This document shows positions 28,120 to 31,240 of a stretch of 64,000 nt of DNA, in pieces. Source of the stretch: an uncultured Atopobiaceae bacterium (GTDB lineage Bacteria > Actinomycetota > Coriobacteriia > Coriobacteriales > Atopobiaceae); contig CAKVON010000010.1 of NCBI GenBank assembly GCA_934792625.1, positions 3,677 to 67,676 on the forward strand, written 5' to 3'. The notes beneath the pieces are model-generated. The model was given only the letters and a program-made list of their open reading frames with translations, did not search any database and was not told where the DNA came from. The position numbers and the translations under genes were made by a program. Every line of letters starts with the position of its first letter. The stretch's first letter is position 1.

Positions 28120-28514
28120 TGGCGGGCGTGGGGCGCGACTGGTGCGCTCCGCTCCGCCGCCGAATGTTGCCGTTGCGCGGTCGTGTCGTCATGCGCGGTG
28201 CCGTTCGGCACGTTTTGCACAAACGTGTCCGAATTTGTGTCCGAACCCCTCCGTAAGGTTGTGCCACGGCAACCAAGCGATAGGGGAATTCATTAAGATG
28301 TATGTCACGCGCAGCTCGTGCTTCGGTCGCATGCCCGCGACCGCCGCGATTGCGCGTGGCCCCAGCGCGACCGCTGCATCCGTCGCGATTCACGGGATGA
28401 CGCGCCGCCTCCAAACAACCGAATGGATGAGGAATTTAATGCGACCCGCCCATGGCGCATGTCGCGTTATGCCGAGCAGCCGTCCGGCATCGGACCCATC
28501 CTTTGGAGGCAAAC
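28120..28514 (+). other. 395-base spacer before the clpP operon, with a GTGTCC element
   Basis: No credible gene is visible. At 28225-28246 is a 22-base element, GTGTCCGAATT followed by TGTGTCCGAAC, whose two halves repeat GTGTCCGAA. A close relative occurs at 50737-50758 (19 of 22 identical). TTTTGCACAAAC lies just upstream. The rest is GC-rich with no clear hairpin. An ATG at 28297 opens a frame that leads out of phase into clpP, and I do not consider it a gene. Confidence 0.5.
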
Positions 28515-29108
28515 ATGAACCAGATTCCCAGCTACAACCCCCAGGTCCTCAAGAGGACCGCCTCGGGCGTCGAGAGGTATGACATCCGCGACAGGATGCT
28601 TGCCGATCGCCAGCTCGAGCTCACCTGCCAGGTGGACGCCGAGTCGTGCTCCTCGGTCATCCGCGGTCTTCTCTACCTGCAGGGCCTCGACGCGCAGGCC
28701 CCCGTCACGCTCTACATCAACAGCCTGGGTGGCGAGGTCCAGTCGGGCCTGGCGCTCTATGACGTCATGCAGGCAGTCAGCTGCCCGGTCCGCACCGTCT
28801 GCCTGGGCATGGCGGCCAGCATGGGCGCGCTGCTGTTTATCGCCGGCGACGACCGCGAGATGCTGCCCCACAGCCGCATCATGATCCACGACCCGCTCAT
28901 CGGCGGCGGCATCGCCGGCAGCGCGCTGTCGGTCAAGGCCCGCGCCGACGACCTCATGCGCATTCGCGACGTCACGGCCGAGGTCATCGCCCGCCACACG
29001 GGGATGCCCCTCGACGAGGTCTTCTCGCTCACCGCGTCCGACACGTACTTCGAGGCCGACGAGGCAGTCAGGCGCAACCTGGCCGACCGCGTCGTCACCT
29101 CGCTGTAG
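28515..29108 (+). CDS. ClpP-family serine protease (stand-alone paralogue)
   Basis: A 197-residue protease subunit. The triad is in place: Ser102 in CLGMAASMGALL, His125 in RIMIHDPL and Asp176 in TASDTYFEADEAV. The oligomer-forming handle helix and the glycine-rich YINSLGGEVQSGLALYDVM are also standard. No clpX or other Clp unfoldase gene is beside it. Instead a VirD4/TraG-like ATPase starts 9 bases after its stop, so the two are probably co-expressed. The ATG at 28515 follows TTGGAGGCAAAC. Sequence near LSVKARADDLMRIRD diverges from housekeeping ClpP. Whether the neighbouring ATPase feeds it substrates is an open possibility. Confidence 0.93.
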   Translation: MNQIPSYNPQVLKRTASGVERYDIRDRMLADRQLELTCQVDAESCSSVIRGLLYLQGLDAQAPVTLYINSLGGEVQSGLALYDVMQAVSCPVRTVCLGMAASMGALLFIAGDDREMLPHSRIMIHDPLIGGGIAGSALSVKARADDLMRIRDVTAEVIARHTGMPLDEVFSLTASDTYFEADEAVRRNLADRVVTSL

Positions 29109-29117
29109 GGGGGCGCT

Positions 29118-30512
29118 ATGACTAGGACCACCGCAGCTAAGACCACCGTCGCGACCTCGGGCGAGAAGTGCGTCGGGCACACCGCTGCCGCGGGCCCCTC
29201 CGACCGCAGCTCCCGCGCCGCCTACCAGGGTGAGCTTCTTCTTACTCGCAACCACTCCGCAAACGCCGACTCCTGGGCCACCGGGCTCAACAACAACATC
29301 CTGGTGCTTGGCTGCTCGGGCGGGGGCAAGACGCGACACCACGTCAAGCCCACCCTTATGCAGTGCCAGGGTTCCTACGTCGTCCTCGACGGCAAGGGCC
29401 GCCTTTGGGACGAGATGGCCCCCTTCATGGCGCTCAATGGCTACATGGTCGATCGCCTGGACTTCACCGGGATCGGTGACGACTCGGTCGGCTACGACCC
29501 GCTCGCACAGGTGCGCTGGAGGCACGGCGCTCCCGTCCAGGCCGACATCATCTCCATCGCAAGGGCCATCTGCCCGGTAGACCAGCACGGGTCCGACCCG
29601 TTCTGGGGGCTTGCCGCTGCCAACTACCTGGCAAGCTTCATCGCGTACGTCTTCGAGGCGCTGCCCGAGCGAGAGTGGAACTTCTCGAGCGTAACGCGCG
29701 TCTTCGAGCAGGCGTGCGACGGCCGCGAGTGCACCATGTTCGACCAGCTTGCCGACGACGACCCCACGAGCTACGCGGTCTCCCTCTACCGTCGCGCCAA
29801 GGCAACCAAGGCGGCGAGCAAGATGCACGCCAGCATCATGGGCATCATCGCGGCGAACCTCCTGCTGCTCTCGTTTGACGCCGCCGTGCGCTGCTTTCGC
29901 AATCCCAACCAGGTCGACCTGGCGTCCTTTGGGTCCCAGAGGCGTGTCCTGTTTGTGACCATGGACGACCTCGACGACAGCCTCGCGCCGCTCACCAGCC
30001 TCTTTGTGACGCAGCTCATCCGACATCTGTGCGACGCCGCCGACGCCACGCCCGCGGGTCGGCTTGACGTGCCCGTCCGCCTTGTGTTGGACGACTTTGC
30101 CAACCTCAACCTTCCCGGCATCGACGACGTGCTCGCTGTCATCCGCAGCCGCGAGATCAGCTGCACGCTCGTCTGCCAGACGGTGAGCCAGCTCGAGGCG
30201 CGCTACGGCGTGGCCGCCGCCAACTCGATCGTCGGCAACTGCGACCGCCAGCTGGTTATGGCCTTCCAGGACGAGCGCACCGCCAGCTATTTCGGGACGC
30301 GTGCCGACAGGCCGGCCTCGGTGCTGCTGGAGACCCCCATGGACAAGTGGTGGCTCTTCGAGCGTGGCCAGGCGGGCGTGCTCGACGACGCCTACCACCT
30401 TGAGGAGCATCCCGCCTACGACAGGTTGCGTCTGACGCGTGGCTTCGAGATGGCCGGCGGCATTCGTGAGGTTGAGGCCGCCGCCGGTTCCAACCCTTCC
30501 CTTTGCGAGTAA
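29118..30512 (+). CDS. VirD4/TraG-like P-loop ATPase without membrane anchor
   Basis: A 464-residue hexameric-motor-type ATPase. Walker A is LGCSGGGKTRHHVKP (64-78), followed by GSYVVLDGKGRLWDEM, the characteristic VirD4 segment in which the usual DPKGE is replaced by DGKGR. Walker B is VRLVLDDFANLNLPG (about 320-334), and the TraG/VirD4 sensor region SREISCTLVCQTVSQLEARYG with NSIVGNCDRQLVM follows. It lacks the N-terminal transmembrane pair of true coupling proteins, so it is probably soluble. It starts 9 bases after clpP and is followed by an unknown gene after 9 bases. No relaxase or other transfer gene is near. A non-conjugative role is inference. Confidence 0.85.
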   Translation: MTRTTAAKTTVATSGEKCVGHTAAAGPSDRSSRAAYQGELLLTRNHSANADSWATGLNNNILVLGCSGGGKTRHHVKPTLMQCQGSYVVLDGKGRLWDEMAPFMALNGYMVDRLDFTGIGDDSVGYDPLAQVRWRHGAPVQADIISIARAICPVDQHGSDPFWGLAAANYLASFIAYVFEALPEREWNFSSVTRVFEQACDGRECTMFDQLADDDPTSYAVSLYRRAKATKAASKMHASIMGIIAANLLLLSFDAAVRCFRNPNQVDLASFGSQRRVLFVTMDDLDDSLAPLTSLFVTQLIRHLCDAADATPAGRLDVPVRLVLDDFANLNLPGIDDVLAVIRSREISCTLVCQTVSQLEARYGVAAANSIVGNCDRQLVMAFQDERTASYFGTRADRPASVLLETPMDKWWLFERGQAGVLDDAYHLEEHPAYDRLRLTRGFEMAGGIREVEAAAGSNPSLCE

Positions 30513-30521
30513 GGAGAGCCC

Positions 30522-31184
30522 ATGCCCATCCAGAAGAACCGGGTCAACGGCCCGATCTCGAGCCCTGACACGCGCTCGGGCGCATTCGCCCGCTCGGACG
30601 AGCGCCCCTCCCTCGACGAGCTCATCGCCCGCGCGGACTCGGAGTCGCGCGAGCACGGCCAACGCGAGGTCGCCGCCGCAAGGTTGGCCGAGTTCGACGC
30701 GAGCGATGCCTACCGCCGAAGCAGGGAGGACCTCCTTGCCCTGGTTGGCCCCATCGTCGACGTCCTGCCGACCATGGAGGGCTACCAGCGGGAAAAGGTC
30801 CCCGGCTTCTGCCCGTCGTCCGGCGCCTCGGCCGCGAAGGAGCCTCCCGTCGAGGTCGACCCCGATTGCCTGGGGTTGGTTAACCCCGCGATCGTGTTTA
30901 CGCACGACATGAAGGAGTCTCCCTACAGCCCGCTCGTCCTCTCGGACGACGATTCGTACCAGGAGGCCCTTGACGCGACCGAGATGCTCTCGCAGTTTTG
31001 GGAGGGCACGGCCTCTGCCAACGAGCTGTCGCTCGCCCGTGCCCTCATCGTGCACGTCGTGTTGGCCTACCCCGACCTGCGCGAGGCCGTCTTCGAGCGT
31101 GCGTCAATCGTCGCGCGCGGCCTGTCAGGGTCCGTCCGCTGGTGTTTCGAGGGATGGTCTAAGGCCTCCGACACCCTGCGTTAG
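30522..31184 (+). CDS. Unrecognised 220-residue protein, third gene of the ClpP/VirD4-like operon
   Basis: I do not recognise this protein. It is soluble, acidic and largely helical by appearance. The first 70 residues are polar with RPSLDELIARADSESREHGQREVAAARLAEF, probably a coiled-coil. The middle has CPSSGASAAKEPPVEVDP, a likely linker, then a folded C-terminal domain with FTHDMKESPYSPLVLSDDDSYQEALDATEMLSQFWEG and SVRWCFEGWSKASDTLR. The ATG at 30522 follows AAGGAGAGCCC and is 9 bases after the ATPase stop, so it belongs to the same operon. It could be an adaptor or substrate for the ATPase-protease pair; that is speculation. Confidence 0.8.
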   Translation: MPIQKNRVNGPISSPDTRSGAFARSDERPSLDELIARADSESREHGQREVAAARLAEFDASDAYRRSREDLLALVGPIVDVLPTMEGYQREKVPGFCPSSGASAAKEPPVEVDPDCLGLVNPAIVFTHDMKESPYSPLVLSDDDSYQEALDATEMLSQFWEGTASANELSLARALIVHVVLAYPDLREAVFERASIVARGLSGSVRWCFEGWSKASDTLR

Positions 31185-31200
31185 CCAGGCGCATCTCGCA

Positions 31201-31224
31201 CTGCCGAGAAGGACTGCCGAGAAG
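31201..31224 (+). repeat. CTGCCGAGAAGNRC motif family (tandem pair shown)
   Basis: Two perfect copies of CTGCCGAGAAG lie 13 bases apart at 31201-31211 and 31214-31224, with a decayed third copy after them. Other perfect plus-orientation copies start at 5139, 33750, 47359 and 48434. Minus-orientation copies start at 5673, 22092, 25664, 27000, 38347, 42854, 44746, 46443, 53664, 55864 and 58900. Of the 17, 14 are between genes; 22092, 42854 and 48434 are in coding sequence. In all but the copy at 47359 the core continues as N-R-C. The motif is not palindromic. Function unknown. Confidence 0.85.
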
Positions 31225-31240
31225 GACTATCGAGAGGGGC

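Follow-up and report, generated by a model that had tools for sequence, protein, structure and literature searches.

In an uncultured Atopobiaceae bacterium, a ClpP serine peptidase is encoded directly upstream of a soluble ATPase of the TrwB/VirD4 type, a relative of conjugative coupling proteins, and a functional link between the two is strongly supported by comparison across genomes. The genes lie at positions 28515 to 31184 of the window, by which we mean the whole 64,000-nucleotide stretch analysed (contig CAKVON010000010.1, positions 3,677 to 67,676). Loci of this ATPase family carry a same-strand ClpP in 53 of 56 cases, adjacent to the ATPase in 50, and ordinary coupling-protein loci in 0 of 54, most of the latter covered with flanks of about 1.5 kb; because of this difference the link is strongly supported and a conjugative remnant is disfavoured. 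Some gut-type bacteria thus possess a second, specialised ClpP whose gene almost always lies next to that of the ATPase, and this arrangement suggests a motor-driven protease of a kind not described before. To the proposal that this dedicated ClpP is driven by a motor of the FtsK-HerA superfamily, and not by an AAA+ unfoldase, we give an even chance.

An earlier note on the window had described a trio of ClpP, ATPase and an unrecognised third protein, and had proposed a proteolytic machine with an unorthodox motor. The core of the system is the ClpP-ATPase pair and not the trio, because not every locus has the third gene (9 of 15 close loci do), which makes it an optional component. The proposed connection between protease and motor gained support from the counts above, whereas the IGF/LGF-type docking loop envisaged with it found no proof. 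The note knew of no described system with this trio, and our literature search returned no paper on such a ClpP-ATPase pair; the relevant wording of PMC7824862 and PMC12419801 concerns other subjects.

Pairing of ClpP and ATPase across genomes

At L051 and L073 one called gene separates ClpP from the ATPase, at L056 the two are 2 kb apart with no called gene between them, and at four loci (L053, L055, L071 and L081) ClpP comes second. Three family loci have no ClpP: L010, which a contig edge cuts off within the ATPase, L052, with a 5'-shortened ATPase, and L078, which looks intact. Apart from Coriobacteriia, the family has rare members in a second phylum, taken to be Bacillota, where the pair occurs in 4 of 398 genomes sampled around G397 (Agathobacter). 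That sample held seven places with open frames shorter than 520 residues, of which five, in the 4 genomes, have ClpP; the other two are L135, a 5'-shortened coupler, and L205 (511 residues).

At E <= 0.001 the window ATPase retrieves 502 homologues; among the top 120, identity is 62-73% save for one 99% copy. When the genome collection was scanned, 12 loci emerged: 11 carry Coriobacteriia titles, and the twelfth is from Agathobacter (26% identity). Among 396 Coriobacteriia genomes, 52 had a match at E <= 1e-60; 46 of these carry the family-type ATPase (from about 259 bits upward, by table count) and the rest are ordinary couplers. The 56 family loci (the window, L001-L011, L048-L082, L137-L141 and L201-L204) cover every family-type place of this sample. 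The 54 coupler loci comprise 44 plus 10 added later (L205-L211, L020-L022), with flanks of only about 1.5 kb except at L012, L083-L085 and L205-L211. Repeats of the same gene were omitted (L086, L088, L089), as were small repeat loci (L013-L019, L023-L047, L090-L092, L103, L107, L124, L125, L127, L172-L200). Presence of ClpP was checked by tblastn and by hidden Markov models on stop-to-stop frames, and genes at fetched loci were called with our own script, which can miss overlapping genes. Sixteen family loci are near copies (L058-L069, L201-L204), and without fifteen of them the ClpP count is 38/41; four genomes (G001, G002, G101, G1092) contribute two loci each. The four family and ten coupler loci added last agreed with the earlier counts. 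The residue tally, tree, motif counts and Mantel test described below exclude L201-L204, and the tree and Mantel test omit a further 8 and 12 near-identical rows, respectively. A model derived from loci with ClpP gave a clean score gap (667-724 bits versus 258), which is partly circular because the genomes searched with it were nearly the same ones again.

Tree distances of ClpP and ATPase are correlated (Mantel r 0.82 over 37 loci, with 0 of 5000 permutations as high), also when only close loci are considered (r 0.75, n=14, a value reached by 0 of 5000 permutations), and part of this correlation could be explained by shared vertical descent alone. In loci L058-L069 the mean ratio of nonsynonymous to synonymous substitution rates (dN/dS) is 0.157 in the ATPase, based on 28 pairs among the 8 of these 12 loci whose start motif could be located, and 0.091 in ClpP, based on 63 of 66 pairs among all 12; these values indicate purifying selection on the pair. 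In the same 12 loci, which belong to one group, the pair occupies one fixed site beside a gene that we take to be glucose-6-phosphate isomerase (pgi), and this fixed site argues for stable residence there. At L067:8833-10746, ClpP and ATPase read as one frame of 637 residues. This candidate fusion was rejected and is not counted as support; it reflects a one-base deletion that sets a single draft genome apart from its sister genomes, perhaps through a sequencing error.

The paired ClpP and its ATPase partner

The window operon, all on the forward strand, has the following features:

28515..29108, forward strand: ClpP serine peptidase of the paired type, 197 residues (open reading frame with a Shine-Dalgarno-like site; Pfam CLP_protease, PF00574, E 3.7e-48; paired ClpP lineage)
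28818..28820, forward strand: codon of ClpP catalytic Ser102 (Ser in 49/49 paired ClpPs)
28887..28889, forward strand: codon of ClpP catalytic His125, then Asp instead of the Gln of housekeeping ClpP (His in 49/49 paired ClpPs)
29040..29042, forward strand: codon of ClpP catalytic Asp176 (in paired ClpPs Asp in 45/49, Asn in 3, Glu in 1)
29118..30512, forward strand: soluble TrwB/VirD4-type ATPase, 464 residues (open reading frame)
29310..29333, forward strand: Walker A, GCSGGGKT, ATPase residues 65-72 (sequence)
29388..29402, forward strand: DGKGR, ATPase residues 91-95, in the place of the coupler-type DPKG (sequence, regular-expression counts)
29487..29495, forward strand: V-G-Y tripeptide, ATPase residues 124-126, candidate docking or pore element (motif counts)
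30081..30098, forward strand: Walker B, LVLDDF, ATPase residues 322-327, with Asp in place of the Glu of most couplers (DDF in 56/56 family loci)
30522..31184, forward strand: third operon protein, 220 residues, predicted helical, an optional component (prediction, profile search, locus counts)
30612..30635, forward strand: LDELIARA motif, N-terminal in the third protein and common to third proteins elsewhere (descriptive)

The three frames are separated by 9-bp gaps, and these coordinates and spacing, the catalytic triad, the nucleotide-binding motifs, the DGKGR segment, the soluble ATPase and the unrecognised third protein are all as the earlier note had described them. A ggagg precedes the ClpP start at 28515, and a longer frame from 28452 also exists. 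The protein has an S14 (ClpP peptidase family) domain with an intact Ser-His-Asp triad, and its score stays under the curated threshold for all NCBIfam ClpP models listed (171.4 at best, versus 249).

As judged from sequence, the paired ClpPs are a lineage of their own. Each of 26 ATPase-bearing Coriobacteriia genomes searched with PF00574 has one strong housekeeping ClpP (about 260-275 bits). In 24 of them there are as many extra ClpPs (scoring at least 130 bits) as there are ATPases of this family, and the extra copies lie within about 2 kb. G387 and G300 depart from this pattern; at G300:C1:2310840-2311370 there is an extra ClpP of 195 bits. In four Bacillota genomes, two have the paired ClpP as the sole extra one and two have two further unpaired ClpPs each. 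In a 63-row tree, a single branch separates paired from housekeeping ClpPs (support 99/95, and 100% of 200 bootstrap trees) with both phyla represented on each side; long branches were flagged, chiefly L082 and L080.

Residues were tallied in 49 paired and 22 housekeeping ClpPs. The residue after the catalytic His is Asp or Glu in 47/49 paired ClpPs and Gln in 22/22 housekeeping ones. The paired ClpPs of L138, L141 and L082 have Asn in place of the catalytic Asp. Residue numbers of E. coli ClpP are presumptive. For Chlamydia trachomatis ClpP2, the relevant part of PMC9823225 describes an unfoldase pocket lined by Phe63, Tyr91, Leu49 and Phe83, which we mapped to positions 62, 90, 48 and 82. 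Position 82 is Phe or Tyr in 22/22 housekeeping and 0/49 paired ClpPs, and position 48 is Leu in 22/22 versus 19/49 (Arg in 23); position 62 is still Tyr or Phe in 47/49 paired ClpPs and position 90 still Val or Ile in 45/49. Since two of the four residues are changed, position 48 only partly, and two are kept in kind, the pocket appears to be altered, not erased. A largely retained triad together with loss of the aromatic residue at position 82 in 49/49 fits a partner other than ClpX.

The ATPase matches Pfam T4SS-DNA_transf (E 7.5e-32) and the NCBIfam VirD4-like CD1115 model (NF045973; 236.9 bits, under the cut-off of 250), and its predicted model matches TrwB across residues 43-441, suggesting a TrwB-like core fold. 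No membrane-type segment stands out in the window ATPase (the top 19-residue hydropathy mean is 1.88, at residues 239-257), and just 56 low-confidence residues precede the core, where a type IV coupling protein would have its N-terminal membrane anchor. Its Walker B reads LDDF at 324-327, with D325-D326. DDF recurs in all 56 family loci, while 34 of 44 couplers have hDEF[AGS], three have NDDF and the rest escaped the pattern; DDF is thus not exclusive to the family, because of those three. By regular expression, DPKG occurs in 3/52 family and 26/44 coupler sequences, and the C-terminal part of family ATPases is about 30 residues shorter than that of couplers. A Gly ahead of the Tyr/Phe of a V/I/L-G-Y tripeptide was found in 47/50 scorable family and 5/32 scorable coupler sequences, and the tripeptide is a putative docking or pore element; the consensus [LIVMP]-G-[FLY] is presumptive.

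Operon partners, mechanism and alternatives

The third protein has no Pfam or NCBIfam match, and a profile search gave 92 homologues. AlphaFold2 predicts a helical protein (predicted local distance difference test score 72.0, predicted template modelling score 0.58), and the model gave no useful fold match. A related stretch appears in the profile of operon proteins from L051, L056, L073 and L075, and an N-terminal LDxRIxxA-like motif recurs in third proteins of different clades, lying within the first 45 residues in 13/14 third proteins versus 15/361 background proteins, with the motif made from the same proteins; as a lead, it could be a putative docking motif. P0001, the only single-sequence match of the third protein, combines the N-terminal half of that protein with a PF00483 domain; it comes from a 1.26-kb contig and is probably chimeric.

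Other partners recur. A protein of 212-274 residues with conserved GE, D.G.D and FQVK residues lies within about 9.5 kb in 10/15 close loci, and is downstream of the operon in L002, L004, L009, L010, L011, L048 and L050; its L048 copy has no Pfam match, and we take the protein to be PD-(D/E)XK nuclease-like. Five other loci have a superfamily 1 (SF1) helicase of 812-1011 residues, directly after the ATPase in L051, L072 and L074 and one or two genes further on in L054 and L071; the L051 copy matches PADLOC MkoA (4.7e-37) and, weakly, DUF2726. At L141:2877-8371 the pair lies near genes matching DrmD (E 0) and DrmMII (3e-163) and a DUF1016/YhcG nuclease gene, in a DISARM-like island. Together, the helicase and nuclease-like neighbours and this island are hints, not proof, of a nucleic-acid or defence link. 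In the window itself, a Pfam scan of ten neighbouring proteins found ordinary chromosomal types (a branched-chain amino acid transporter, AAA/DUF4143, malic enzyme, radical SAM, TetR, aldo/keto reductase and others). A minus-strand frame of 862 residues at 28467-31055, antisense to the operon, looks like a high-GC shadow frame, and an imperfect 13-bp tandem repeat lies directly past the operon at 31200-31235.

From these features we infer a specialised ClpP barrel docked to a soluble TrwB/VirD4-type ring ATPase, which would form a dedicated two-ring machine and replace an AAA+ unfoldase of the ClpX/ClpA/ClpC type. The ATPase, a relative of conjugative coupling proteins with neither membrane anchor nor type IV secretion partners, would grip a protein, or a protein bound to DNA, and ATP hydrolysis would pull this substrate through the ATPase pore and on into ClpP. 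The variable partners encoded in the operon (the helical third protein, the nuclease-like protein, the SF1 helicase) would act as adaptors that select or prepare substrate. The likeliest biology would be removal of foreign DNA-protein complexes, that is, defence, and a role against foreign DNA is possible. We favour a ring motor feeding a ring protease, ClpX-like but with a motor of the DNA-pump superfamily, because it is the simplest account that uses all the parts. A hexamer-on-heptamer mismatch would resemble that of ClpXP. That a hexamer of the FtsK-HerA superfamily can carry stacked enzyme layers is described for DUF4297-HerA in the relevant part of PMC11291478. A more specific version is a categorically new class of energy-dependent protease, in which ClpP has an FtsK-HerA/VirD4 motor and bound proteins would be stripped off or degraded while that motor moves along (foreign) DNA; we put it forward tentatively and at somewhat less than an even chance. 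Such a protease would be the first link known to us between DNA-pumping motors and compartmental proteolysis.

Several observations weigh against a ClpP fed by this ATPase. In G387 the ATPase looks intact and the genome contains no extra ClpP, G300 has a shortened ATPase without adjoining ClpP (another ClpP lies about 178 kb off), and the L081 ATPase match is without the P-loop part, though ClpP is present. The catalytic Asp is replaced in 4/49 paired ClpPs, and we found no docking tail or loop that is universal. The known relatives of the ATPase move DNA, and we know of none that feeds a protease; ClpP and ATPase could also be coupled without physical contact.

Among the alternatives, the best surviving is a HerA-like sensor-effector, in which the ATPase ring would sense or translocate foreign DNA and allosterically switch on ClpP as a cell-damaging or partner-cleaving effector, with no threading. 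HerA with SIR2, DUF4297 or NurA offers a parallel, but we consider this unlikely: the pair as such matches no PADLOC model, ClpP forms a closed chamber into which substrate normally has to be threaded, and one fixed site in one genome group is less typical of defence genes. Rather less likely still is a regulated DNA or nucleoprotein pump, in which the ATPase would work on DNA alone and ClpP would cleave or turn over the ATPase or third protein, with a C-terminal Ala-Ala as degradation tag. Besides the predicted TrwB match, such a pump draws on the ssrA-like Ala-Ala end of 106 of the best 120 close homologues (P0002-P0121; dipeptide rate 1.4%, the homologues not being independent); however, the window ATPase ends in LCE, tails vary in more distant clades, and turnover by housekeeping ClpP would not require a dedicated ClpP lineage.

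The earlier note had offered remains of a conjugative element as its sober alternative, and had set beforehand that homologues always lying in conjugative elements would speak against its proposal; they do not. Queries for relaxase, VirB4 and VirB6, taken from genuine coupler loci, had 0 matches in the 56 family loci (E 1e-5), whereas all three matched in each of six further coupler loci, and the Pfam scan of ten window neighbours found no relaxase, type IV secretion system (T4SS), integrase or phage domain, as the note had said. No viral contig relative was found, nor any match at 60% identity or more in plasmid and phage collections. That the pair is a remnant of, or cargo in, a conjugative or integrative element, ClpP being a passenger, is therefore already largely refuted and very improbable, despite the homology of the ATPase to coupling proteins, the Mob_Pre protein and integrase at L138, the integrase at L070 and a weak integrase match (23.6 bits) at L004, given the ClpP counts, the missing transfer genes, purifying selection and the fixed site in 12 loci.

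Comparison with known systems

If the favoured reading is true, a motor family unrelated to the usual one can drive compartmental proteases, which would explain the second ClpP with a changed docking pocket in a share of Coriobacteriia. The system would be an energy-dependent protease with an unorthodox motor, categorically new only if contact and degradation are true, and as two small soluble proteins it is directly testable.

Compared with TrwB/VirD4/TraG coupling proteins (CD1115, NF045973), the ATPase of the pair is soluble and short, has LDDF and not LDEF, mostly does not have DPKG, has about 30 fewer residues in its C-terminal part, and lies next to ClpP; no relaxase or T4SS genes were found with it among the ten window neighbours or in the 56 family loci. 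Like phage, jumbo-phage and head-maturation ClpP-like proteases, the paired ClpP stands outside the housekeeping system, but the window ClpP scores 171 bits on canonical ClpP models and 90 on the head-maturation model, all below cut-off, and no phage context was seen among the window neighbours scanned. The pair resembles the two-gene HerA defence systems in having an FtsK-HerA ATPase and an enzyme partner in one operon (53/56 loci). In contrast to HerA-SIR2, HerA-DUF4297 and HerA-NurA, its ATPase is of the VirD4/TrwB type, its partner is ClpP, the pair has no PADLOC match, and its role in defence is putative. With ClpXP, ClpAP and ClpCP the pair shares the ClpP family, the Ser-His-Asp triad and a gene for a ring-forming kind of ATPase alongside. 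Every characterised ClpP machine known to us uses an AAA+ Hsp100 motor, whereas the motor of the pair is of the TrwB/VirD4 type and its ClpP, a separate lineage, is changed at the aromatic position 82 and at the residue after the catalytic His.

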